This document shows, piece after piece, positions 46,647-58,876 of a stretch of 64,000 nt of DNA. Each line of letters begins with the position of its first letter. Position 1 is the stretch's first letter. Both the position numbers and the translations under genes were made by a program. The notes under the pieces were generated by a model. It was not told where the DNA came from. It saw nothing but the letters and a program-made list of their open reading frames with translations, and did no database searches. Source of the DNA: Niastella koreensis GR20-10 (GTDB lineage Bacteria > Bacteroidota > Bacteroidia > Chitinophagales > Chitinophagaceae). The stretch spans positions 5,220,744-5,284,743 of the forward strand of contig NC_016609.1 of NCBI RefSeq assembly GCF_000246855.1. The letters run 5' to 3'.

Positions 46647-48389
46647 TTATAGATCCAGTTCAATATCAGTAACAGGAACAGAACAGCAGATCAGCAATCT
46701 GCCGGTACCAGGTGGATCTAACGGTGATGAGGTATATTCAATATTCCCGTCCAGCAGGGAACTTTCACAATGATGACATACGCCCACCCGACACGACCAC
46801 TGTACGGGTACGTCACAAGCTTCAGCCGCTTCCAGCAGATTATTAAAACGGGCATTCCAGTGAAATGAAATGTTGCTCTTTGTAAAACTAACGAATGGGC
46901 CGGCGCCCGTGTTATCAACAGGCAGATGTGGAGCAACGGCAGCCGGTGTAGCCAGGTTGGAATTGATAAAGATCTCAGACCTGATCTGGGCCGGAAGAAC
47001 ACCCAATGACGTGAGGGCTGCGGTAACCCCAGACATATAACCCATTGGGCCGCAAAGATAGTAATGGCAACCGGCGGGAAATTTCAGGTTATTCAAAACG
47101 GTTATATCCAGATGTCCGCTGATATCATATTGTTTTCCGATCTCCTCTTCTGCTGCCGGCCTGCTATATACTTTTATGCTGTGGAAGTTGGGTAAATGCG
47201 AACCGGCGTCTTCCACCTCATGCATAAACGGATAATTCGCGGCATTGCGTGCCGAGTGCACCCACCACACTTCGCGCATAGGTGAGCTGTTCCTGATAGC
47301 CTGTAACATGCCCAGCAAAGGGGTAATGCCAACACCCGCACTCAATAACACAACAGGAAGCTGATCTTCCGATAAAACAAAATCGCCCCTCGGCGCACTG
47401 ACATCAAGCGTATCACCTTCATGCAGCTGCGTATGCATATACTGACTCACCTTTCCTTCCTGCTCCCATTTAACAGCTATCCGGTATGTGCCGGCGCCTT
47501 GCGATCCGCACAGCGAAAACATCCGGGTCAATGGGGTTTTACCGGGTCCGGCAGGAAGTCTGACAGCAATATGTTGACCGGGTAAAAATGCGGCCAATGG
47601 TTTGCCGTCGGCGGGGCGTAATTCAAACGAGCGGATATCATCGGTTTCCTGGTGCAATGCCTGCACAACAAAAGAGCGGTATCCCGGCCATGCAACGGGG
47701 CGGCCATTAACTCCGGAAAGACCTGAATTTCCTGTTGTTATTCCCGCTTCGGCCGATTGTAAAAGATCCTGGAACGATTGACCCCAGCCTTTGCTCAATG
47801 CCGGGATCTTTAATGCCTTCTGCAATTGTTCTTTCGGATGTTCTTTTGAATACAACAAGGCATCTACCTCGGCAATGTTCATTTGTTCAGGACCATCAGC
47901 TATCTTTTGTATAAGATCACCCGCGCCGATCTCACCTTCCTGGATAACGCGGAAATAAAACCCGGGTCGTTTGTGCGACACCAGCAAAGCCGGCATTTCA
48001 GGCACCCCCAATGCTATTCCCACTCTATAACAGGTAACTCTTGGTTGTGTAACTTCAAACACAGCTGTACCGATTGCATACCGGTCGCCAATACATACAT
48101 CCTTGTCTGCTAATCCTTCAACAGTAAGGTTTTCGCCGAATTGCCCATAATACAGATCAATCCGCTTCAATTGTTCCCGCCAGTATTCGTATGACTCGGC
48201 CTGGTAAACAAATACGGCGCGGTGCTCGCCGCCGTGAGCACCCAGGTCTGTCTGGCAATCGCCATCAATATTAAGCCGTCTAACAACCACCCGGCCTGTA
48301 ACCGGTTTTTTAAAAATTGAAGTCCTGATAAGCTTCCCGCGGAACCCGACCTCACGTGACATGCCTACATTTACAGATAAGACTTTCAT
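46647..48389 (-). CDS. Fusion protein: MOSC domain, ferredoxin reductase and [2Fe-2S] ferredoxin
   Basis: A 580-residue cytoplasmic fusion. Residues about 1-210 are a MOSC/YiiM-like domain ('GDCQTDLGAHGGEHRAVFVY', 'PRVTCYRVGIALG'). About 230-465 is an FAD- and NAD-binding reductase ('RMFSLCGSQGAGTYRIAVKW', 'LSAGVGITPLLGMLQAIRNS', 'YLCGPMGYMSGV'). About 490-580 is a C-terminal plant-type ferredoxin with ligands in 'SCRVGVCHHCESSLLDG' and a late Cys in 'RLLICCSVPV'. Similar MOSC-reductase fusions are thought to reduce hydroxylamino or sulfur compounds with a molybdenum cofactor partner, which is not encoded nearby. A 12-bp copy of its start region recurs at 48409-48420. Confidence 0.9.
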   Translation of the reverse strand: MKVLSVNVGMSREVGFRGKLIRTSIFKKPVTGRVVVRRLNIDGDCQTDLGAHGGEHRAVFVYQAESYEYWREQLKRIDLYYGQFGENLTVEGLADKDVCIGDRYAIGTAVFEVTQPRVTCYRVGIALGVPEMPALLVSHKRPGFYFRVIQEGEIGAGDLIQKIADGPEQMNIAEVDALLYSKEHPKEQLQKALKIPALSKGWGQSFQDLLQSAEAGITTGNSGLSGVNGRPVAWPGYRSFVVQALHQETDDIRSFELRPADGKPLAAFLPGQHIAVRLPAGPGKTPLTRMFSLCGSQGAGTYRIAVKWEQEGKVSQYMHTQLHEGDTLDVSAPRGDFVLSEDQLPVVLLSAGVGITPLLGMLQAIRNSSPMREVWWVHSARNAANYPFMHEVEDAGSHLPNFHSIKVYSRPAAEEEIGKQYDISGHLDITVLNNLKFPAGCHYYLCGPMGYMSGVTAALTSLGVLPAQIRSEIFINSNLATPAAVAPHLPVDNTGAGPFVSFTKSNISFHWNARFNNLLEAAEACDVPVQWSCRVGVCHHCESSLLDGNIEYTSSPLDPPGTGRLLICCSVPVTDIELDL

Positions 48390-49567: not shown

Positions 49568-51106
49568 TTGAAAACAGTTGCCTTAAACAGCGCCGCTGGC
49601 CGATGGGTCATGATTGCCACTATTGTGGCTTCTGCCATGGGGTATATAGATATGACCGGGCTTAATGTGGTGCTGCCTGCGCTTCAAAAAGGGCTTAACG
49701 CCACAGGCCCCGACCTTTTCTGGATCCTGAACGGTTACCTGTTGATGATGGCTTCCCTGATCCTGATCGGCGGCGCACTGGGCGACAAACTGGGGCGCAA
49801 AAAGGTGTTCATGGTGGGGATCACTGTATTTATTGCCGGGTCTGCACTTTGCGGATTCGCCGGCAGTATAACAGCCCTTGTTCTTTTCAGAATTATCCAG
49901 GGCATCGGCGGGGCCATGATGATCCCTGGCAGTCTTTCGCTTATCTCTTCTTCTATCGACGAAAAACAACGCGGGAAAGCTATCGGCATCTGGTCTGCCT
50001 CTTCTACCATATTTACGATGGGCGGCCCCATGCTGGGCGGCGCACTGGCCGATGCAGGTCTTTGGCGGTATATCTTTTTCATCAACGTTCCCCTTGGTAT
50101 TGCCACACTTATCATCCTTCATTTTAAAGTAAATGAGAACCGCGAGGATGACCGTAAGGGCCTCGACTTATGGGGCGCCGGCACCCTGGCCAGCGGGTTA
50201 ACGTTATTGACGTTCGGTTTTCTTCGCATCCCGATTGCCGGTTTTCATCAGCTAACCGTTTATCTTTCTTTAGCGGGCGGAATCATTTTCCTGATCCTGT
50301 ATCTCGTTATTGAAAAAAGGAGCAGCCACCCCATGATGCCGCTAAGCTTATTTTCCAATCCTTTGTTCAGCGGCACTAACACCCTCACATTTTTTTTATA
50401 TGCCGGTCTTAGCGCGAGCACGCTTTTTCTTTCCCTGAACCTCGTGCAGGTGCAGGGTTACTCCCAGTTTCAATCAGGGCTTACCTTTTTACCTTTCACT
50501 ATTCTTATGGCTGCAGCATCGGGTTTTGTAGGCGGACTGTCTGACAAATACGGCTCGCGCTTTTTTTTGATTGCAGGTCCTTTGATCACCGGCATTGGGC
50601 AACTTCTGCTCTCATTGGTTACCAAAACCGATGGCGCCCATCAATACTTTGTTACTTTTTTTCCCGGCATCCTGTTGCTGGGTTTGGGTATGACGCTAAC
50701 AGTTACGCCACTTACCTCGACGGTGATGGGATCTGTTTCCAAACATTTTTCGGGGATTGCTTCCGGTGTAAACAATGCCATGACCAGCATTTCGAGAGTG
50801 GTGGCCAACGCCGTATTCGGCGCACTGGCCATTGTATTTTTCTCAGCAGCCCTGCAGCACGGTATGGATAATACTACGCTGAACCCCACCAAAAAGAATA
50901 TTGTTTTTGCACAGGCATCCAACCTCGGCAACGCCGCCGTTCCACCGGAACTGGCTGCGCAGCAAAGCACCATTAAACAACTTTACCAGGAAAGTTTCAT
51001 TACCGCCTATGCGAAAATTCAACGCATCAGCGCCGGTTTAAGTTTTTTTGCAGCCCTGATGACGATTGTTTTTATCAGGAAGAAGGTGCCTGCTACGCCA
51101 TCTTAA
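49568..51106 (+). CDS. MFS drug exporter, DHA2 family (14 membrane spans)
   Basis: A 512-residue transporter with about 14 helices. Visible motifs are 'ASAMGYIDMTGLNVVLPALQ' in the first span, motif A 'GGALGDKLGRKKVFMVGI' and motif C-like 'STIFTMGGPMLGGALADAGL'. It resembles the EmrB/QacA group that expels drugs with protons. The start is the TTG at 49568, since the next ATG (M17) would cut into the first helix. It follows the VOC gene by 17 bp. It ends directly against the convergent egtB stop (51107) with no space for a separate terminator. Confidence 0.9.
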   Translation: MKTVALNSAAGRWVMIATIVASAMGYIDMTGLNVVLPALQKGLNATGPDLFWILNGYLLMMASLILIGGALGDKLGRKKVFMVGITVFIAGSALCGFAGSITALVLFRIIQGIGGAMMIPGSLSLISSSIDEKQRGKAIGIWSASSTIFTMGGPMLGGALADAGLWRYIFFINVPLGIATLIILHFKVNENREDDRKGLDLWGAGTLASGLTLLTFGFLRIPIAGFHQLTVYLSLAGGIIFLILYLVIEKRSSHPMMPLSLFSNPLFSGTNTLTFFLYAGLSASTLFLSLNLVQVQGYSQFQSGLTFLPFTILMAAASGFVGGLSDKYGSRFFLIAGPLITGIGQLLLSLVTKTDGAHQYFVTFFPGILLLGLGMTLTVTPLTSTVMGSVSKHFSGIASGVNNAMTSISRVVANAVFGALAIVFFSAALQHGMDNTTLNPTKKNIVFAQASNLGNAAVPPELAAQQSTIKQLYQESFITAYAKIQRISAGLSFFAALMTIVFIRKKVPATPS

Positions 51107-52258
51107 TCAGTAGTGTTCAGCCAGGCGGATGCCCGTATATTGCCAGCGCAGGGGCGCATGAAAAAAATTGCGATAGGTTATGCGGCTATGTCCTTCCGGC
51201 GTAACTTCAGATGCGCCGCGCAACACCATTTGATTTACCATAAACTTGCCATTGTATTCGCCAACGGCCCCTGCTGCTCTTACAAAACCGGGATACGGCA
51301 GGTAAGCACTGTTCGTCCATTCCCAACGCTTTCCCCAGGGAAACTTCGGCGCAGCCGCTTCCCATTCAAATTCAGTAGGCAATCGCATCCCCTTCCAGGC
51401 AGCATAAGCTGCCGCTTCATAAAAACTGATGTGGCAAACAGGATCATGTGGCTGTAACAACTGTAGCCCCGATGGCTGATAACACCACCACTCCCCATCG
51501 ATTGCATGCCAGTACATAGGCGCCGACACTTTATTGTTCTTTACCCAATCCCAGCCCTCCGCATGCCAGAACTGGTGTTGTTTATAACCACCCTCTTGCA
51601 TAAACACCAGGTATTCGCGGTTGGTGACCGGCATGGTTGCAATGCGGTAAGCAGGCAGGTAAACCGTATGCCGACCCAATTCATTATCAAAACAAAAACC
51701 ATCGCCGGCATATCCTATTTCGTACAGTCCACTTTCCATGGTTACCCAGCTTTTTTCAGGATCATGAACCTGGCTCGTCTTTTCTACTTCAAATGCGGGC
51801 TGCAACGGATTATTACCCAAAATATATTTAATATCTGTAGCCAGCAGTTCCTGGTGTTGCTGTTCATGGTTAAGCCCAAGAACAATAAGCCCGGTGAGGT
51901 CTGCCGATAACTGTGCCTGTAACAAACTATGCATGGCGTTATCTACATACTTCCGGTAATTATAAATATCTTCTACGGAGGGCCTGCTCAGGTTACCCCG
52001 GTCTGTACGAACAACCCGAACCCCTACCGATTCATAATAGCTGTTGAATACAAAATTGTACATCGGGTCAAACTCGCGGTAGCCTTTAACCGTTTGCAAG
52101 ATGAATGTTTCAAAAAACCAGGTGGTATGCCCCAAATGCCATTTGGGCGGACTAACATCCACCACGGGCTGCACCACATAATCTTCTGTTTTAAGGTTTC
52201 TGCAAAGGTGTTCCGAATGTTTCCTCACTGCCTGGTATTGGTGTAATAATGTATTCAT
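51107..52258 (-). CDS. egtB: Ergothioneine synthase EgtB-like sulfoxide synthase
   Basis: A 383-residue non-heme iron enzyme. Residues 1-150 are the DinB-like iron-binding domain: 'PPKWHLGHTTWFFETFI' supplies a His at 41 or 44, and 'LNHEQQHQELLA' supplies His131 and His135 of the HX3HXE signature. About 170-383 is the formylglycine-generating-enzyme-like domain ('EIGYAGDGFCFDNELGRHTV', 'RLPTEFEWEAAA', 'GHSRITYRNFFHAPLRW'). EgtB joins cysteine or gamma-glutamylcysteine to trimethylhistidine with oxygen. No EgtA or EgtC is nearby, which would fit an enzyme using cysteine directly. Its start overlaps the upstream transporter gene by 4 bp, and egtD is four genes upstream in the same operon. Confidence 0.88.
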   Translation of the reverse strand: MNTLLHQYQAVRKHSEHLCRNLKTEDYVVQPVVDVSPPKWHLGHTTWFFETFILQTVKGYREFDPMYNFVFNSYYESVGVRVVRTDRGNLSRPSVEDIYNYRKYVDNAMHSLLQAQLSADLTGLIVLGLNHEQQHQELLATDIKYILGNNPLQPAFEVEKTSQVHDPEKSWVTMESGLYEIGYAGDGFCFDNELGRHTVYLPAYRIATMPVTNREYLVFMQEGGYKQHQFWHAEGWDWVKNNKVSAPMYWHAIDGEWWCYQPSGLQLLQPHDPVCHISFYEAAAYAAWKGMRLPTEFEWEAAAPKFPWGKRWEWTNSAYLPYPGFVRAAGAVGEYNGKFMVNQMVLRGASEVTPEGHSRITYRNFFHAPLRWQYTGIRLAEHY

Positions 52259-53820
52259 GGTTTAGCTGTTAGTTTTACCAGATCTGAAATATTGGCAATA
52301 GCCAGTTGTTTCATTTGCGTTTGCCGCATCATCAGCGCATACGCATTATTGAACCCGATCGGTTGTAACCATTTGATGTTATATTGTTGCAGGAATTGTT
52401 CGTATACGTACCTGTATACCGCATCTTTATCCTGTATCAATCTGGCTGTAGTGGCATTGTCTGTTTGCAGCACTACCAGCAAACCTGTTCCTGTGTATTC
52501 GGGGTACAGGTCGATGTGGCCATTCCTGAGCGCTTCAAAACATATTTTGGTGCCGCCCAAACCCGTCTTTGTTTCTACATCAAGATCGGTATAGCCTTTT
52601 ATGAGCATAGCATACATATTGCTCAGGATGTATTGCTCCGCAAATATTTTTGAACCAATATGCACCACTCCTTTTTTCCCGCCGCGCGGCGTTTTCCAGA
52701 TACCCTGTGCTTTTAGAAAATCTTCCGCAATCTTTTCCGGTTCCTGGTGCAGGTAATCGGCCCGGTAATTCAGCCCGGTCATAATAGAATCGTTGATCCT
52801 GCCCGTTAGCATATTCAGCACTCCTTCCAGTTCTGGGTATTGCTGCAGCACCCCTGTTCTTACTATGGGCGCCGCATAATAAGGCGGAAAAATATGTTTA
52901 TCGTCTATGAGCGTACCCAGGTCAAAGGCTTTGATGCGGCCATCAGTACTATACCCGCTGATCACGTCCAGCTTTTTTTCATACGCCGCTTTGTACATTA
53001 CAGCATCGCTGATCACTACCGGGTGCATCTGCAGGCCATACACCGACCGCAGGTCGAGATAGCCATCTTTACGGCCCATAAACTCCGGTGTAAAACCAGC
53101 CAGCAACCCGGTATGCCGGATGCCGGGTGTGAGGTAAAATGAACTGACAGCGATCAACAGCGGTACAGTTATAAATGCCGCAGACAATTTTTTAAGTTTT
53201 ATCTTTTGCAGCAGGGATAGTAAAAAGTCGAGTAACAGGGCCAGCAAGGCAGCAGGGATAGCGCCGGCCAGGATCATATTGGTATTGTTCAGCGAAATAC
53301 CACCGAAGATAAATTCACCGAGGCCGCCAGCTGCAATGTAAGCGGCCAGTGTGGCTACTCCTACATTGATCACGGTAGCCGTTCTGATCCCCGACAGGAT
53401 CACGGGCATCGCCAATGGCAATTCTACTTTTAATAGCCTGACACCCGGGGTCATTCCCATAGCAATGGCCGCCTCCCTGATATTTGCATCGATACCGATA
53501 ATGCCGGTATAGGTATTTCTAACTATCGGCAATAACCCATACAAAAACAAAGCAATGATGGCAGGTGTGGGGCCAATGCCGGCTAATGGAATCAGGAAGC
53601 CCAGCAGGGCAATGCTGGGAATGGTTTGAAATACGGCAGTGATGCCAATTACAGGAGCAGCCAGTTTTGTTTTGCGGGCAACATAAATGCCTGCCGGCAC
53701 GCCAATGACTATAGCCAGCATAATGGAGATCAGCGTCAGGCCGATATGCTGAACGGTTTGCTCCAGCAATTTTTGCCAGTGCTCTGCTATAAAACGCCAT
53801 AAGTTTTGTGAACCGTTCAT
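52255..53820 (-). CDS. ABC permease fused to a glycine betaine-type substrate-binding domain (EgtU-like candidate)
   Basis: A 521-residue fusion. Residues 1-210 are a ProW/OpuCB-type permease of about six helices with the EAA loop 'IREAAIAMGMTPGVRLLKVE'. Residues 245-520 are a ProX/OpuCC-type binding domain whose halves are in reversed order. 'DGYLDLRSVYGLQ', 'VISGYSTDGRIKAFDL' and 'DDKHIFPPYYAAP' come first. 'VVHIGSKIFAEQYILSNMYA', 'TGLGGTKICFEALRNGHIDL', 'YPEYTGTG' and 'IGFNNAYALMMR' come last. In ordinary members the GSK..EQ segment begins the domain. The gene is overlapped 4 bp on both sides by the ATPase and egtB genes. Position suggests ergothioneine or a related betaine as ligand, like the known fused transporter EgtU; a betaine/choline importer is the alternative. 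Confidence 0.88.
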   Translation of the reverse strand: MNGSQNLWRFIAEHWQKLLEQTVQHIGLTLISIMLAIVIGVPAGIYVARKTKLAAPVIGITAVFQTIPSIALLGFLIPLAGIGPTPAIIALFLYGLLPIVRNTYTGIIGIDANIREAAIAMGMTPGVRLLKVELPLAMPVILSGIRTATVINVGVATLAAYIAAGGLGEFIFGGISLNNTNMILAGAIPAALLALLLDFLLSLLQKIKLKKLSAAFITVPLLIAVSSFYLTPGIRHTGLLAGFTPEFMGRKDGYLDLRSVYGLQMHPVVISDAVMYKAAYEKKLDVISGYSTDGRIKAFDLGTLIDDKHIFPPYYAAPIVRTGVLQQYPELEGVLNMLTGRINDSIMTGLNYRADYLHQEPEKIAEDFLKAQGIWKTPRGGKKGVVHIGSKIFAEQYILSNMYAMLIKGYTDLDVETKTGLGGTKICFEALRNGHIDLYPEYTGTGLLVVLQTDNATTARLIQDKDAVYRYVYEQFLQQYNIKWLQPIGFNNAYALMMRQTQMKQLAIANISDLVKLTAKP

Positions 53821-54611
53821 GCCTTTTTGTTATTTTGGTTTTGCAGCCACTGCCAGATCTCGCCAGCGGGTATGGTGGCCATGGCGACGGACAGCGAGCT
53901 CCCTTCCAGGAACTTTTTCACTTCTTCATTGACGGGGCGATATAACAACTCATCCGGTTTACCTTTTTGCAACAGTTTTCCATCCTGCAACAAGGCGATC
54001 GTATTCCCCATTTCAAAAGCTTCCTGCACGTCGTGTGTTACCATGATGATCGTTTTGCTTTTCAGTTCTTCCAGTTCTTTAAACAACTGGCGAACAGCAG
54101 TGCGGGTAATGTTGTCCAATGCACTGAACGGTTCATCCATAAGCAGCACCGGCGGACTGGCAGCCAATGCCCGCGCCAGGTTCACCCGCTGTGCTTCCCC
54201 GCCGCTCAATTGATGCGGATAGCGGGTGCGGTATGCATCAGGTAATTGTACTTTTGCGAGTAATTCGGTTACCCGCGCCGTTGTTTTTGACCGGTCCCAT
54301 TTTAAGAGGTTTGGGATCACACTGATATTTTCTTCTACCGTGTAATGTGGGAAAAGGCTGCTTGCCTGGATCACATAACCAATATCACGCCGTAACAAAT
54401 GGGCGGGCTGCGTTGTAATGTCTTTTCCGCCAATAGAGATCGTGCCACCCGTTGGCTCAATCAACCGGTTGATCATTCTCAGCAGCGTTGTTTTACCGCT
54501 GCCGCTGGCGCCCAGTAACGCCAGGTGTTCACCTGATGCTATTTCCATGGATACCTGGTCTACTGCAGCTTTCGTTCCATACAGTTTACTCACCTGTTGG
54601 ATGCTGATCAT
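53817..54611 (-). CDS. ABC transporter ATP-binding protein (betaine/ergothioneine type)
   Basis: A 264-residue ATPase: Walker A 'GASGSGKTT' (34-42), Q loop 'GYVIQASSLFPHYTVEENI', signature 'LSGGEAQR' (135-142), Walker B 'VLLMDEP' (155-161) and switch His in 'MVTHDVQEAFEMG'. It resembles OpuCA/ProV but ends after the ATPase domain with only about 25 further residues; the CBS domains seen in many osmoregulated members are absent. That argues against ionic-strength control of transport. Its ATG overlaps the oxidoreductase stop and its stop overlaps the permease start, so stoichiometric expression is likely. Confidence 0.92.
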   Translation of the reverse strand: MISIQQVSKLYGTKAAVDQVSMEIASGEHLALLGASGSGKTTLLRMINRLIEPTGGTISIGGKDITTQPAHLLRRDIGYVIQASSLFPHYTVEENISVIPNLLKWDRSKTTARVTELLAKVQLPDAYRTRYPHQLSGGEAQRVNLARALAASPPVLLMDEPFSALDNITRTAVRQLFKELEELKSKTIIMVTHDVQEAFEMGNTIALLQDGKLLQKGKPDELLYRPVNEEVKKFLEGSSLSVAMATIPAGEIWQWLQNQNNKKA

Positions 54612-55987
54612 GCGATTGTATTAAAGAGGTTGTTTATGGACTCTGCATAAGTGGGGTGGGCAAAAATATTTTCGGCTAACTGACTGGCCGTAACCCCGCC
54701 AAGCATGGCAATTTGCAATAATGACATCAGTTCACCACCACCGGCGCCAATGACCACCACGCCCAGGATTTTATCGGTTTGCGCATGTACGATCGCCTTC
54801 ATGAACCCTTTGGGTTCTCCGGCTTCAGTAGCCCGCGCCACATAATTCATAGGCAGCTTAGCTACCTTATACGGTAACTGCTGTTCTTTGGCCTCCGTTT
54901 CATTTAATCCTACACGTCCCATTTCGGGGTCCATGAAAACACAATAAGGAACAGGCCGGTTATTGATAGTGACGTTCTGTTGTTCAATAATATTTTTATA
55001 AACAACCAGGTAATCGTTGTAAGAAATATGGGTGAATGCGGGGCCGCCTTTTACATCCCCCAGCGCATAGATGCCCGGAACAGTTGTTTCCAGTTTTTCA
55101 TTCACCTTAATATAACCATTCTTATCTGTTTCCACCCCCGTTTTTTCCAATTGAAGCTTATCGGTATTGGCACGGCGTCCCGTGGCAATCAATACATGAG
55201 AGGCGGTAATAGTTCGGTGCGCGTTGTCATTTGTGGTCAATGTAATAATGCCGCCTGTATCCTTACTGACAGCCTCCACGTTTATGTTTCGTATAATATT
55301 GATCCCCTCTTCTTCCAGGATCGACTGGAGCCCGTCCGACACATCTGTGTCTTCTCTTGCCAGCAAACCAGTTGACCGGTTAAGGATGGTAACGTTACTG
55401 CCAAACCGCCGGAACATTTGCGCGAATTCTATGGACACATAACCGGCGCCAACGATCACGAGGTGTTCCGGTACTGTTTGTAATTCCATTATGGTAGTAG
55501 AGGTAAGGTAAGGCACACCGTCGATACCCGGTATGGGTGGAATGGCGGGGCGTGCGCCTGTATTGATAAAAATATGACCGGCCGTGTACGATTGCGTTTT
55601 ACCATCTTTACCGGTAACAGCGATCTGCTTATTACCGGTAAAAAAAGCTTCTCCCCAAAGGAGGTCGATATGTTCCTGTTTTTCGAGTGACTGTTGTAAC
55701 CCATTTCTGAACCGGTCTACCACACCCTTTTTCCGGTTGATGATGGCCTGCATATCAATCTGGACGTTGCCGGTTGTAAGGCCATACTCCTTTGCCCGCC
55801 TTGCCTGAAAGGCGTTCTTTGCACTCGCTACCATTGTTTTGGTAGGCGTACACCCTTCATTGATGCAGGTGCCGCCGATATGTTCTTTTTCTACCAGGGC
55901 AACTTCCCAGCCTTTGGCAGCCAGCTTGGTGGCCAACGGGCTGGCAGCCTGGCCCGAACCTATGATCAAAGCATCATACTTTTTCAT
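54608..55987 (-). CDS. FAD-dependent pyridine nucleotide-disulfide oxidoreductase (possible thiol/ergothioneine disulfide reductase)
   Basis: A 459-residue class I flavoprotein disulfide reductase from the ATG at 55987 ('MKKYDALIIGSGQAASPLAT'). The redox pair is Cys41 and Cys46 in 'GGTCINEGCTPTKTM'. The NAD(P) motif is 'HLVIVGAGYVSIEFAQMFRR', the FAD motif 'TVPGIYALGDVKGGPAFTH' and the C-terminal His-Glu dyad is in 'FAHPTYAES'. It resembles mercuric reductase and lipoamide dehydrogenase, but lacks the extra C-terminal cysteines and N-terminal metal domain of MerA. The gene is inside the EgtD-EgtB operon, 11 bp after egtD and overlapping the ATPase gene by 4 bp. Reduction of ergothioneine disulfide is a reasonable hypothesis from this setting only. 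Confidence 0.9.
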   Translation of the reverse strand: MKKYDALIIGSGQAASPLATKLAAKGWEVALVEKEHIGGTCINEGCTPTKTMVASAKNAFQARRAKEYGLTTGNVQIDMQAIINRKKGVVDRFRNGLQQSLEKQEHIDLLWGEAFFTGNKQIAVTGKDGKTQSYTAGHIFINTGARPAIPPIPGIDGVPYLTSTTIMELQTVPEHLVIVGAGYVSIEFAQMFRRFGSNVTILNRSTGLLAREDTDVSDGLQSILEEEGINIIRNINVEAVSKDTGGIITLTTNDNAHRTITASHVLIATGRRANTDKLQLEKTGVETDKNGYIKVNEKLETTVPGIYALGDVKGGPAFTHISYNDYLVVYKNIIEQQNVTINNRPVPYCVFMDPEMGRVGLNETEAKEQQLPYKVAKLPMNYVARATEAGEPKGFMKAIVHAQTDKILGVVVIGAGGGELMSLLQIAMLGGVTASQLAENIFAHPTYAESINNLFNTIA

Positions 55988-55998
55988 GCAGCATTGTT

Positions 55999-57006
55999 TT
56001 AAAGAACCACCCAACAGGCATCGACAAACCATTGCTTGCTATCCATTAAATTACTTACCGGTTTAAAGCCATTCTTCAACGCCAGGTCATCGACCTGTTC
56101 CTGGGTAAATTTTTGCGAAATTTCCATCCAGATATATTCATTTTTTTTAAACGAGATGGTGGTATCCCTTATCCGGACGGTCCTGTCTTCCAAACATACC
56201 AGGAAGCTTTTGCATGCACCTGTTTCAGGTTCATAACTACAATAATGTTCAAAATCATCCAGGTTGAAATTCCCTCCCAGTTCGTGGTTGATCCGCTTCA
56301 GCAAGTTAAGATTAAACTGGCTGGTAATTCCATCCCGGTCGTTATAAGCCATTCTGATCATATTAGGATTCTTTACCAGATCAAAACCCATGATCACCAG
56401 GTCGCCGGGGTCTAAATGCCTGCGCAGGTCCTGGCAAAACGCATGGCTTTCCATCATGCTCATATTGCCGATATTACTGCCCAAACATAAAACCACTTTC
56501 CGGTTGGCGGAGTGTTTATTTGCTTTTGAAAGCATGCGGAAGTACTCGCCATGCAAAGGAATGATCGGCATGCCGGGTAGCAGGGCAGGCAGCGTGGTAT
56601 TTATAAGATCGAGCACAGCGCCGGAAATATCTATCGGGAGATAGTTGAAAGTTGCCTGCTGTTTAGTGAGCGCCTTCATCAAATGAATAGATTTGTAACA
56701 ATCTCCCGGCCCCAGTTCAATGAGGTCAAAAGGCGTCCCTTCTTTTATCAACAGCTTCGTCATTTCCGGTAGCCGGGTAGTGAAGATGTCCAGCTCACAC
56801 CGGGTGAGGTAATAATCGGCACTATGCATGATCTGCTGAAAAAGCCTGTCGCCGGCTGCATTATAAAAATATTTTGAAGGAAGTTTTTTGGGGTATTGTG
56901 AAAGCCCTTCCAGTACGTCTTCATAAAACTGTTGGGAATTCTTAGCTACGGTTTCCTTTGGCAGGTTTTTAACGTTAGATTGACTGCTACAAATACTATT
57001 ATTCAT
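55999..57006 (-). CDS. egtD: L-histidine N-alpha-methyltransferase EgtD
   Basis: A 335-residue SAM-dependent methyltransferase that trimethylates histidine to hercynine. Family motifs in order: 'SKYFYNAAGDRLFQQIMHSA' then 'YYLTRCELDIF' (about 44-75), SAM-binding 'DLIELGPGDCYKS' (94-106), 'CLGSNIGNMSM' (174-184), 'AYNDRDGITSQFNLNLL' (220-236) and 'YIWMEISQKFTQEQ' (291-304). The last carries the Met and Glu positions that hold the substrate amino group in known EgtD. The length is slightly above the usual 320 because of a short N-terminal extension. It is the first gene of the five-gene operon ending with egtB. Confidence 0.9.
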   Translation of the reverse strand: MNNSICSSQSNVKNLPKETVAKNSQQFYEDVLEGLSQYPKKLPSKYFYNAAGDRLFQQIMHSADYYLTRCELDIFTTRLPEMTKLLIKEGTPFDLIELGPGDCYKSIHLMKALTKQQATFNYLPIDISGAVLDLINTTLPALLPGMPIIPLHGEYFRMLSKANKHSANRKVVLCLGSNIGNMSMMESHAFCQDLRRHLDPGDLVIMGFDLVKNPNMIRMAYNDRDGITSQFNLNLLKRINHELGGNFNLDDFEHYCSYEPETGACKSFLVCLEDRTVRIRDTTISFKKNEYIWMEISQKFTQEQVDDLALKNGFKPVSNLMDSKQWFVDACWVVL

Positions 57007-57134
57007 TAGCTTCTTTTTTACGTTGTGAATCTTTTCTTTCCCCGCAATTACCCTTATTGGGGTGATAGATGCAAGACTTATGCCTTTATGAGGATTTTAC
57101 TATTTTGAACCTGTTGAAATGTCCATTTTACAGT

Positions 57135-57444
57135 ATGAGCAATTTGAACCGGCTTTTTTTAAAAGATGATGTTACCCTGCTGGCAGTTGAACCATCGGCT
57201 CCCACTTGTTCGATACGCCCCTGCAATGCCCTTTGTGTACAGTGCTGTTTCTAACAGAGGGCAGCGGTACTTGGTTCGCCGATATTGGAAAATTCGACTT
57301 CAAAGCGCCGGTGCTGCCCTTTGCTACCCCACTGCAACACCTCGCCATCACCCGGGAGCAGCCGTTAAAAGGTTACGCCATCAGGTTTCATGGCGATTTT
57401 TATTGCATCGAGTACCACAAGGTGGAGGTTGCTTGTAATTGGTA
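57135..57444 (+). pseudogene. Broken AraC-family regulator, N-terminal domain only
   Basis: The plus strand reads 'MSNLNRLFLKDDVTLLAVE' from 57135. After a frameshift near 57200 it continues in another frame as 'FDTPLQCPLCTVLFLTEGSG', 'FATPLQHLAITREQPLKGYA' and 'IRFHGDFYCIEYHKVEVACN', ending at a stop at 57443-57445. This is the cupin-like sensing domain of Bacteroidota AraC-type regulators. The C-terminal helix-turn-helix pair is missing and repeat DNA begins where it should continue. It is divergent from the egtD operon and may once have controlled it. Confidence 0.7.
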
Positions 57445-57446
57445 GA

Positions 57447-57655
57447 CGGCAGCCGGCAAAGGGCAGTAGGCAGTGGGCAGAGGTGAAAGGGCAAAGGCTT
57501 CCGCGCGGCTTTCCTTTATCAACGCTATCAATTTCATTCTCCCTACCTCCTTCTTCCTAGTCTACCTCTTAACTTGTTAACACGTAAACTTTCTCCTCTA
57601 TCAACGCTATCAACTTTGTCAACCCTATCAACCCTTCCTCGTCAACTTAATTGCC
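57447..57655. repeat. Composite intergenic repeat, divergent third version
   Basis: GGCAG-type words (57447-57482) are followed by two TATCAAC/TATCAAT words at 9-bp spacing (about 57517) and three nTTAAC/GTAAAC hexamers at 8-bp spacing (57568, 57576, 57584). Four TATCAAC-like words at 9-bp spacing end the array (about 57600-57632). It shares word types with copies at 30358 and 45114 but not their conserved core. It directly follows the broken AraC gene. Confidence 0.75.
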
Positions 57656-57671
57656 TCGCTTGACCAGGTTG

Positions 57672-57699
57672 GCCGGAATACTGTCCGGTTGTTTTTTTT
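57672..57699 (+). terminator. Rho-independent terminator
   Basis: GCCGGA-atactg-TCCGGT followed by TGTTTTTTTT on the plus strand. It follows the broken AraC gene and its repeat, suggesting that the region was transcribed from the AraC promoter. Confidence 0.7.
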
Positions 57700-57777
57700 C
57701 ATTGAGTCAATTTTACCCACTTAGTGGTATTAACACTAGTTAACGATAAATCATCAGTGATTAACAACCCGTCACTC

Positions 57778-57785
57778 TAACTTTG
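57778..57785 (+). promoter_or_regulatory. Predicted -7 box of the small lipoprotein gene
   Basis: TAACTTTG matches TAnnTTTG exactly. It gives a leader of about 124 nt that contains a GC-rich hairpin, AAAGCC-tGGCGCCg-GGCTTT (about 57830-57849). Confidence 0.5.
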
Positions 57786-57914
57786 CGTATTCAATTTTAG
57801 AAGATAGGCATCAAAACAAGCTGATCAATAAAGCCTGGCGCCGGGCTTTAGGGTCAGCAGGAAACCCCAAAGTAATCAGAAATAAAAGCCCTGTGCAAAA
57901 TTAAACGCTCATAA

Positions 57915-58091
57915 ATGAAACAAGCAACTCTCCTTTCCCTGATGGTATTCCGTTTATTCGGATGTAAGAATCTAACAAACACCACACAACCAATACCCAC
58001 TCCATCCGCCAATTCGCCGAGCAGCGAAATAAAAACAAGCGGCAATCATATGATCAAAGCAAAGTGCGAATATGGTGTGTGGACAAAATAG
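57915..58091 (+). CDS. Small lipoprotein, 58 residues, function unknown
   Basis: A short gene with an ATG at 57915, stop at 58089-58091. The N-terminus 'MKQATLLSLMVFRLFGCKN' has a lipobox LFGC with the lipidated Cys at residue 17. The mature part is Ser/Thr/Pro-rich ('TTQPIPTPSANSPSSEIKTS') and ends 'KCEYGVWTK', with one further Cys. It has a good -7 box (57778-57785) and is followed by a 14-bp inverted repeat. I do not recognise a family; small lipoproteins of this kind are often envelope-stress related, but nothing here proves it. Confidence 0.5.
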   Translation: MKQATLLSLMVFRLFGCKNLTNTTQPIPTPSANSPSSEIKTSGNHMIKAKCEYGVWTK

Positions 58092-58126
58092 CTCCGTTTT
58101 ATAAATCCGTAATCTGAAAACCACAA

Positions 58127-58160
58127 CAATACCTAATAGTCTTTGTACTATTAGGTATTG
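58127..58160. terminator. 14-bp perfect inverted repeat between convergent genes
   Basis: CAATACCTAATAGT (58127-58140) and ACTATTAGGTATTG (58147-58160) pair perfectly around a CTTTGT loop. It lies between the small lipoprotein stop and the convergent regulator stop at 58178. It is AT-rich and has no T run; a shared terminator or a protein-binding site are both possible. Confidence 0.6.
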
Positions 58161-58177
58161 CTAACGATGGTGGCCAG

Positions 58178-58876
58178 CTATGAACGCTCTATGAGGCTAT
58201 AGCCTTTTCCCCGGATATTTACAATTTCAACAGAACTGTCCAGCCTGAAATATTTCCTTATCCGGGTTATATATACATCCATACTTCTTGCAGAAAAAAT
58301 ATCATCCTTTCCCCACAATTTTATAAGCGCCGTTTTCCTGTCGAGCAAACTGTTTTTTGAATCGCTCAACAATTGTAACAACTCCGCTTCGCGTTGTGAT
58401 AATTGAATTATTTCCCTGTCCCGGCTCAATTCCATTCTGCGGGAATTAAACAAAAAGCGGCCAATGGTTGTTTCCTCCGAAGGATCTGAACGGGGGCTGA
58501 ACCCGCCAACCCGCCGCCTTACCAGCACCTTCAATCTCAGGATCAGTTCTTCCATGGAAAAGGGTTTCTTCATATAATCATCTGCACCAATTTCAAAACC
58601 CCTGATCACATCTTCCGTTTCTGTTCTTGCAGTGAGAAACATGATCGGTACTTTATCATCTACCAGGCGAATTTCAGATACCAGTGAAAAACCATCTTTC
58701 CTGGGTAGTACCACATCAATGATACAGAGGTCTGGCTTCAGTTCACGGAACTGATTCCAGCCATCTATGCCATTTAATGCAATATGAACGATAAACTCCC
58801 GCATTTCCAGTGATTCCTTGATGATAGACGCTAACACAGGCTCATCATCAACCAATAATACCTTGATTTTATTCAT
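58178..58876 (-). CDS. OmpR/PhoB family response regulator
   Basis: A 232-residue two-domain regulator. The receiver (1-118) has 'VDDEP', the phospho-acceptor Asp in 'CIIDVVLPRKDGFSLVSEIR', 'FLTART' and 'KKPFSMEELILRL'. The winged-helix DNA-binding domain (about 135-230) has 'QLSQREAELLQLLSDSKNSL' and 'RSMDVYITRIRKYFRLDSSV'. It should act as a phosphorylation-controlled transcription factor. No histidine kinase gene is adjacent, so it is an orphan in this window. A -7 box match (TAATTTTG, 58955-58962 on the minus strand) lies about 80 bp upstream. Confidence 0.94.
   Translation of the reverse strand: MNKIKVLLVDDEPVLASIIKESLEMREFIVHIALNGIDGWNQFRELKPDLCIIDVVLPRKDGFSLVSEIRLVDDKVPIMFLTARTETEDVIRGFEIGADDYMKKPFSMEELILRLKVLVRRRVGGFSPRSDPSEETTIGRFLFNSRRMELSRDREIIQLSQREAELLQLLSDSKNSLLDRKTALIKLWGKDDIFSARSMDVYITRIRKYFRLDSSVEIVNIRGKGYSLIERS

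Follow-up and report, generated by a model that had tools for sequence, protein, structure and literature searches.

Organization of the locus

The window analysed here is a 64,000-nt stretch of the Niastella koreensis GR20-10 genome (NC_016609.1, one contig of 9.03 Mb). It contains five packed minus-strand genes that encode the ergothioneine enzymes EgtD and EgtB, a predicted flavoprotein disulfide oxidoreductase and an ATP-binding cassette (ABC) importer, which consists of an ATPase and a permease fused to a circularly permuted substrate-binding domain (SBD). The original prediction, made from the letters alone, read these genes as one operon combining ergothioneine synthesis, an importer resembling EgtUV and a disulfide reductase. 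The observation behind it is confirmed, with 11 bp after egtD and then three 4-bp overlaps in the coordinates, and its interpretation is partly supported. The data described below give good support to an ergothioneine locus to which an importer and a flavoprotein are linked.

The features of the locus are listed in Table 1. The flavoprotein gene is given from a downstream ATG; with the alternative start further upstream (ATG at 56032), it would run into egtD. A Pfam scan of the ATPase found no CBS domain. A promoter scan of positions 50900–58300 returned six sites compared with 12.8 expected and thus yielded nothing usable.

Table 1. Genes and domains of the ergothioneine locus (positions are those of the window).
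Feature	Position	Strand	Length	Remarks
egtD, histidine Nalpha-methyltransferase (hercynine synthase)	55999..57006	-	335 aa	
Predicted flavoprotein disulfide oxidoreductase	54608..55987	-	459 aa	from downstream ATG
ABC importer ATPase	53817..54611	-	264 aa	TIGR01186 proV 277.3 (cut-off 326.6); PF00005
Permease fused to circularly permuted quaternary-amine SBD	52255..53820	-	521 aa	
Permease part, residues 1–212	53185..53820	-		PF00528; matches OpuA transmembrane chains
SBD first half (C-terminal in EgtU/AfProX), residues 239–376	52693..53106	-		aligns with EgtUC chain 139–276
SBD last half (N-terminal in EgtU/AfProX), about residues 384–520	52261..52671	-		phmmer alignment to EgtUC
egtB sulfoxide synthase, Chloracidobacterium (cysteine-using) type	51107..52258	-	383 aa	

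Conservation of the gene set in Bacteroidota

Related loci were collected by searching genome contigs with the permease-SBD protein, and the best 80 of 180 relatives, all from Bacteroidota, were compared. Their best segments are 63–68% identical to the window permease-SBD, so the set is biased towards close kin; the loci nearest to the window operon are likewise from Bacteroidota, for example Chitinophagaceae and Sphingobacteriaceae. EgtB is present in 79 of the 80 loci, the ATPase in 78, EgtD in 76 and the flavoprotein in 57. A recount with a 120-bit score limit, in which contig ends cut some gene copies, gave 79, 77, 76 and 58 respectively, with one flavoprotein copy cut by a contig end. With F, A, T, B and D denoting the flavoprotein, ATPase, permease-SBD, EgtB and EgtD, the gene orders are FATBD (56 loci), ATBD (10), DBAT (7), ATB (2), TBD (2) and three single cases. 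Every one of the 58 loci that exceed 17 kb has the permease-SBD, ATPase, EgtB and EgtD, and 46 have the flavoprotein as well; their orders are FATBD (46), DBAT (7) and ATBD (5).

The three orders among the long loci indicate that the gene set is kept, rather than one frozen order, and the recurrence of the same genes together in 80 Bacteroidota loci shows that their association is not due to chance. Thus, the linkage of importer and flavoprotein genes to egt genes, which the original prediction had noted in this one genome, recurs in other Bacteroidota. The survey of gene order that it proposed gave a divided answer: the set recurs, but the window order D-F-A-T-B is absent from the 80 loci, with D-A-T-B found in genome G330.

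In a phylum sample of 395 Bacteroidota genomes, the full-length permuted transporter was found in 22 and EgtB in 113. EgtB is present in 20 of the 22 genomes with the permuted transporter and in 93 of the 373 others (Fisher value 5e-10, which ignores relatedness), and it lies within 10 kb of the transporter in 14 of the 22. The transporter was found in 20 of the 147 genomes of a same-family sample, and EgtB adjoins it in 17 of these.

EgtD and EgtB

EgtD matches Pfam family PF10017 with 309.2 bits (cut-off 23) and aligns with the mycobacterial EgtD structures 4uy6 and 4pim. Residues Tyr65, Tyr66, Asn181 and Tyr221 are found in all 74 aligned relatives, Glu295 in 73 and Ser297 in 72; we take the Tyr, Asn, Tyr and Glu positions to be the histidine-binding residues.

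EgtB matches TIGR03440 with 528.9 bits (cut-off 360), and its assignment as SenA (355 bits, cut-off 420) or OvoA (95.6 bits, cut-off 400) was rejected. Family scores and conserved residues thus uphold both proteins as ergothioneine enzymes. The HX3HXE motif of EgtB is present as predicted (His131-x3-His135-x-Glu137), and His41, His44, Tyr74, Tyr75, His131, His135 and Glu137 are kept in all 76 aligned relatives. The N-terminal iron ligand is probably His41 or His44, alongside His131 and His135 of the HX3H motif. The closest solved structures are 8qf6, 6qki and 6o6l (E 1.1e-124 or better), one of these entries being named Cabther. According to a review (PMC10903977), Chloracidobacterium EgtB prefers cysteine and uses a Tyr93-Tyr94 pair. 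The window EgtB resembles the enzyme of Chloracidobacterium thermophilum in the Tyr-Tyr pair, the HX3H motif and the best solved match, which agrees with the earlier suggestion of a cysteine-using EgtB. In contrast to that enzyme, it is without about 18 residues near position 310, and its gene stands in a five-gene operon with an importer and a flavoprotein.

No linked pyridoxal phosphate (PLP) lyase was seen by eye among the clusters present in at least 6 of the 80 neighbourhoods (at most 8 kb on each side), consistent with the prediction that this enzyme is encoded elsewhere. Eight of the 19 PF00266 matches in the genome were scanned with the EgtE model TIGR04343, and none of the eight exceeded the cut-off of 400 (best score 138.3, at G000:C1:2075922-2077010).

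A circularly permuted substrate-binding domain

The SBD is circularly permuted, a feature absent from the original prediction, with an EgtU/ProX-like sequence whose halves are reversed to give the topology of OpuAC. When aligned by phmmer with the ergothioneine-binding domain of pneumococcal EgtU (chain 9egi), residues 239–376 of the window protein correspond to chain residues 139–276 and its residues 387–517 to chain residues 9–135; 99 of 265 aligned residues are identical. Using P for the permease and N and C for the halves that are N- and C-terminal in EgtU, BLAST of each part gave the order P-C-N in loci L101–L121 and N-C-P in loci L122–L129.

The AlphaFold model of the full-length permease-SBD, whose first Foldseek match is OpuA (7ahd/7ahh), has a mean predicted local distance difference test score (pLDDT) of 70.2 and is weak at residues 162–186 and 225–253, among others. 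The SBD was therefore modelled separately (mean pLDDT 86.7, predicted template modelling score 0.86). Foldseek follows chain order. It aligned the SBD model with OpuAC (2b4l) over 301 columns at 15% identity, with a template modelling score (TM) of 0.57 and a root-mean-square deviation (rmsd) of 5.0; the whole-domain TM of this predicted model, taken on the query, was 0.57 to 2b4l and 0.61 to 2b4m. Alignments with the EgtU domain mostly covered 134–139 columns at 40–41% identity, the exception being 9egj_B (342 columns, 13% identity, rmsd 8.6). This pattern is as expected if a sequence of the EgtU/ProX kind has its lobes arranged as in OpuAC. OpuAC 2b4l was not among the 32 phmmer matches.

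The window transporter thus resembles OpuA/OpuAC in that its permease precedes an SBD with this topology, but the SBD is only 15% identical and has a tyrosine cage of the EgtU/AfProX kind. Archaeoglobus ProX (phmmer match 1sw1, E 2.6e-39) has the same Tyr/Phe switch and the same Phe at the 244 position, as described by Zhang et al. 2022 (PMC9732360), whereas the lobe order of the window SBD is reversed and the domain is permease-fused and egt-linked. EgtU of Firmicutes, described in the same source, has the same combination of an ATPase and a permease-SBD fusion. It differs in the order of the SBD halves after the permease (N-C, compared with C-N in the window) and in having Gly244, Phe293 and Tyr337 in place of Phe, Tyr and Phe; moreover, the window importer sits with biosynthesis genes, and Zhang et al. 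report homologs of SpEgtU nearly exclusively in Firmicutes. Circular permutation among glycine-betaine binding proteins has been reported before (PMC2395249). Therefore, the novelty lies in the combination of features and not in the fold.

Other transporter builds

An unpermuted SBD placed before the permease (N-C-P) was found in 31 of the 395 genomes, the order being read by script in 27 and from coordinates in the other four. EgtB is present in 25 of these 31 genomes, no more than 10 kb away in 6 and at another site in 19; the remaining 6 genomes lack it. The N-C-P transporter adjoins EgtB-EgtD in loci L166–L168. At the positions of EgtU residues 244, 293 and 337, the 27 N-C-P sequences have Phe (27), Tyr (27) and Phe (26, with one gap), and at position 243 mostly Lys or Leu. 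That egt genes have as neighbours two transporters of one superfamily but of different build makes a shared histidine-betaine substrate likelier.

A plasmid search matched 1026 records, of which 25 were listed and 10 fetched. Among the 8 plasmid loci read for domain order, five are P-N-C (L215, L217, L218, L219 and L221), one is N-C-P and two have separate SBD genes; the P-C-N order was not found among the 8.

The flavoprotein

The remaining gene, as judged from its sequence, is that of a flavoprotein disulfide oxidoreductase. Its nearest model is PRK06370.1-4 (514.4 bits, cut-off 629), and the glutathione reductase and mycothione reductase models are also below their cut-offs. The CxxxxC pair and His-Glu dyad named in the original prediction are present as Cys41/Cys46 and His444/Glu449, and each position is kept in 57 of 58 aligned relatives, with one row not covering it.

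The flavoprotein often tracks the enzymes. In three of six genomes examined in which EgtB lies apart from the transporter, a flavoprotein-EgtB-EgtD block is present (G101, G001 and G507). Flavoprotein matches at 1e-100 occur in 36 of the 395 genomes, and the ten best, including that of the window, adjoin egt genes; most of the lower-scoring ones do not, and some are in genomes without EgtB. On an 88-row tree, unevenly sampled because most linked rows stem from loci retrieved by the transporter search, the egt-linked label required 3 changes compared with a mean of 19.2 in shuffles. The main group contains 66 of the 67 linked rows and one unlinked row (support 93/85), the exceptions being a linked copy outside the group (G507) and an unlinked copy inside it (G389).

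Ligand pocket

Ergothioneine contacts of EgtU are listed in PMC9732360. Ten of the 14 listed positions are wild-type-like in the window, namely those of EgtU Lys242, Ile243, Thr275, Thr296, Asn339, Tyr341, Glu375, Arg379, Tyr419 and Tyr443. The betaine, carboxylate and imidazole contacts that are kept include, in window numbering, Lys391, Thr424, Thr445, Asn492, Tyr494, Glu246 and Arg250. Window Gly423 is to be read as differing from wild-type Thr274, because the chain compared is a T274G mutant; position 274 is excepted from the strong conservation reported for EgtU in that text. Among 115 distinct permuted sequences, the window included, position 243 is Ile in 104, and position 419 is Tyr in 93 and Ser in 22.

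The designation of the importer as resembling EgtUV therefore survives in part. At the level of sequence, it is valid for the architecture and for most pocket residues, but invalid for the three specificity residues, which are of betaine type, and the lobe order is swapped.

Proposed system and alternative explanations

In the proposed system, EgtD would trimethylate histidine to hercynine, the cysteine-using EgtB would make hercynylcysteine sulfoxide, and an unlinked PLP lyase would presumably complete ergothioneine. The importer would take up a histidine-betaine-type compound, most likely ergothioneine (or hercynine), via a permease-fused SBD that has swapped halves and a cage like that of the glycine-betaine protein AfProX. 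The flavoprotein would spend NAD(P)H via its CxxxxC pair, keeping ergothioneine or partner thiols reduced. Taken as one joint explanation, a Bacteroidota ergothioneine locus of synthesis, importer and NAD(P)H flavoprotein is about as likely as not. Ergothioneine is the best single guess for the imported compound, at roughly even odds. The literature search, which largely lacked subscription papers, found no description of this Bacteroidota cluster.

A fuller version of the proposal is more tentative and falls somewhat short of even. In it, the permuted SBD would be a true ergothioneine/hercynine receptor, with a betaine-type cage and a permease tether via the other half, and would act in a make-retrieve-recycle system with EgtB/EgtD and the NAD(P)H flavoenzyme across Bacteroidota, while in other families of the phylum a transporter with a different domain order would have become associated with egt genes. 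The locus offers a natural test of ergothioneine importer specificity, since the partners and the general pocket are the same, whereas the presumed deciding residues match those of betaine binders and the lobe order is swapped. If the SBD does bind ergothioneine, the current rule for recognising ergothioneine importers overlooks them in many Bacteroidota.

Several observations weigh against the proposed system, beginning with the pocket. According to PMC9732360, Gly244 and the Phe293/Tyr337 switch distinguish EgtU from the AfProX glycine-betaine SBD, and the G244F and F293Y mutations of EgtU weaken ergothioneine binding about 100-fold and 10-fold respectively. The corresponding window residues are Phe393, Tyr442 and Phe490. 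Among the 115 permuted sequences, position 244 is Phe in 111 and Gln in 4, position 293 is Tyr in all and position 337 is Phe in 114. The same script read Gly/Phe/Tyr in three Bacillota fusions (L215, L217 and L221), used as a positive control, and Phe/Tyr/Phe in two ordinary P-N-C fusions, of a cyanobacterium and a fusobacterium (L218 and L219); thus, the mapping can see either state.

The linkage is also incomplete. EgtB is separate from the permuted transporter in 6 of the 22 genomes and absent in 2, and in one of the separate cases (G269) the EgtB match is weak, at 32% identity. In the other three transporter-bearing genomes of the same-family sample, EgtB is elsewhere and unlinked; these are G101 and G001, which have the transporters closest to that of the window (70% identity), and G049. 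Of the 58 long loci, 12 have no flavoprotein gene, and EgtB-EgtD stand without it in G049, G389 and G523, three of the six genomes with a separate EgtB that were examined. Neither fused transporter is present in 68 of the 113 genomes with EgtB, so import is an optional partner of synthesis. In addition, EgtD scores just below the cut-off of TIGR03438 (273.2 compared with 290.9), and a lyase was identified neither in the neighbourhoods nor among the 8 of 19 PF00266 matches scanned.

The pocket residues point to an alternative that we regard as less likely than not, in which glycine betaine or a different small betaine is the imported compound. A shared operon would then be explained if betaine feeds methionine and S-adenosylmethionine, with three methylations per hercynine, or if both compounds are stress solutes. 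At all three positions of the EgtU/AfProX switch, the window and almost every one of the 115 permuted sequences have the AfProX residue, and the same residues are found in the fusions L218 and L219 and in the 27 N-C-P sequences, whose set of 31 genomes has EgtB unlinked in 19 and absent in 6. The tight, conserved linkage to EgtB and EgtD argues against this alternative, as does the finding that, beyond the five genes, no family occurs in more than 20 of the 80 neighbourhoods (neighbours judged by eye). So does Ile392, the equivalent of the thione-contact residue Ile243, which is Ile in 104 of the 115 permuted forms and variable in the 27 N-C-P sequences. Furthermore, some Helicobacter transporters of other subclusters aid ergothioneine uptake with lower affinity (PMC9732360), so absence of the determinants is compatible with ergothioneine as substrate. 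Uptake of hercynine, the substrate of EgtB, as a salvage precursor in place of ergothioneine is a distinctly less probable alternative. The operon encodes an enzyme able to use it, and the betaine and carboxylate contacts are kept while Gly244, which the same text places in a thioimidazole water network, is gone; Glu375, the imidazole NH contact that favours ergothioneine in EgtU, is nevertheless kept as Glu246. Pneumococcal EgtU is reported to bind ergothioneine in preference to hercynine by orders of magnitude.

For the flavoprotein, only its fold and gene neighbours make ergothioneine disulfide a reasonable guess as putative substrate, which is held less firmly than ergothioneine as the imported compound; the protein is a candidate dedicated enzyme for keeping ergothioneine reduced. 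The same literature search gave no paper naming an ergothioneine-disulfide reductase. A serious competitor, somewhat under even probability, is a reductase of the RclA/MerA type that acts on reactive chlorine, thiocyanate-derived oxidants or metal ions and is co-regulated as oxidant defence. The window protein shares with the RclA/MerA/hypothiocyanous acid reductase group the character of a flavoprotein disulfide reductase with CxxxxC. The structures closest to it are 6kgy/6kod (under the deposited name pyridine nucleotide-disulphide oxidoreductase, presumably RclA), 8ajj/8ajk and a mercuric reductase. It differs from that group in being egt-linked and in staying under the curated cut-offs of RclA (388.8 bits), hypothiocyanous-acid MerA (392.5) and MerA (389.6). 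Some genomes that lack EgtB, G464 and G480 among them, do have unlinked relatives, but the egt-linked copies cluster on the tree and the ten best-scoring copies are all egt-adjacent. It is very improbable that the protein is a second dihydrolipoyl dehydrogenase, as its TIGR01350 score (416.8, 8 bits above the cut-off of 408.8) might suggest: PRK06370.1-4 scores higher (514.4), two egt-linked relatives are under the LpdA cut-off (388.5 and 381.0), and another locus in the same genome scores 558.9 with TIGR01350.

Additional genes and related modules

A conserved sixth gene was considered and rejected, since the commonest extra cluster, by eye DUF427-like, occurs in only 20 of the 80 loci. PF04248 was not found in the genome of the window. 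In loci L155–L157, a small gene lies between egtD and the ATPase gene; Pfam calls the L157 copy DUF427 (PF04248), the L155 and L156 genes resemble it in length and position; by eye, the cluster upstream of the flavoprotein in 20 of the 80 loci is similar. A small gene of DUF427 type is a possible further ergothioneine-linked gene. In genomes G500 and G224 (L155 and L157), the permuted transporter is near an EgtD-like gene and EgtB was not found at E 1e-15, which perhaps reflects another sulfur-insertion route or use of hercynine.

Two Lactobacillaceae plasmids (L217, 1482–5304; L223, 3995–7817) carry consecutive genes for a transporter, an ATPase and an FAD oxidoreductase next to insertion sequence elements. 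The L217 permease-SBD has the Gly/Phe/Tyr residues of the EgtU type, and these modules are perhaps mobile units of ergothioneine uptake with a flavoenzyme. This pairing of import and reductase is only suggestive, because the flavoprotein of L217 shares 28% identity with that of the window and has the CxxxxC motif but not the C-terminal His-x4-Glu, and the Lactobacillaceae plasmids L221 and L224 are without the flavoenzyme gene.

Within the window, egtB and an adjoining major facilitator superfamily transporter gene converge, with stop codons at 51106 and 51107 and zero bases between them. Upstream of egtD, a 79-codon open reading frame (57206–57445, plus strand) resembles, by eye only, a truncated sensor part of an AraC-type regulator. 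At 46647–48389 on the minus strand, the window encodes a 580-residue protein that combines MOSC, YiiM 3-alpha, FAD/NAD reductase and 2Fe-2S domains.

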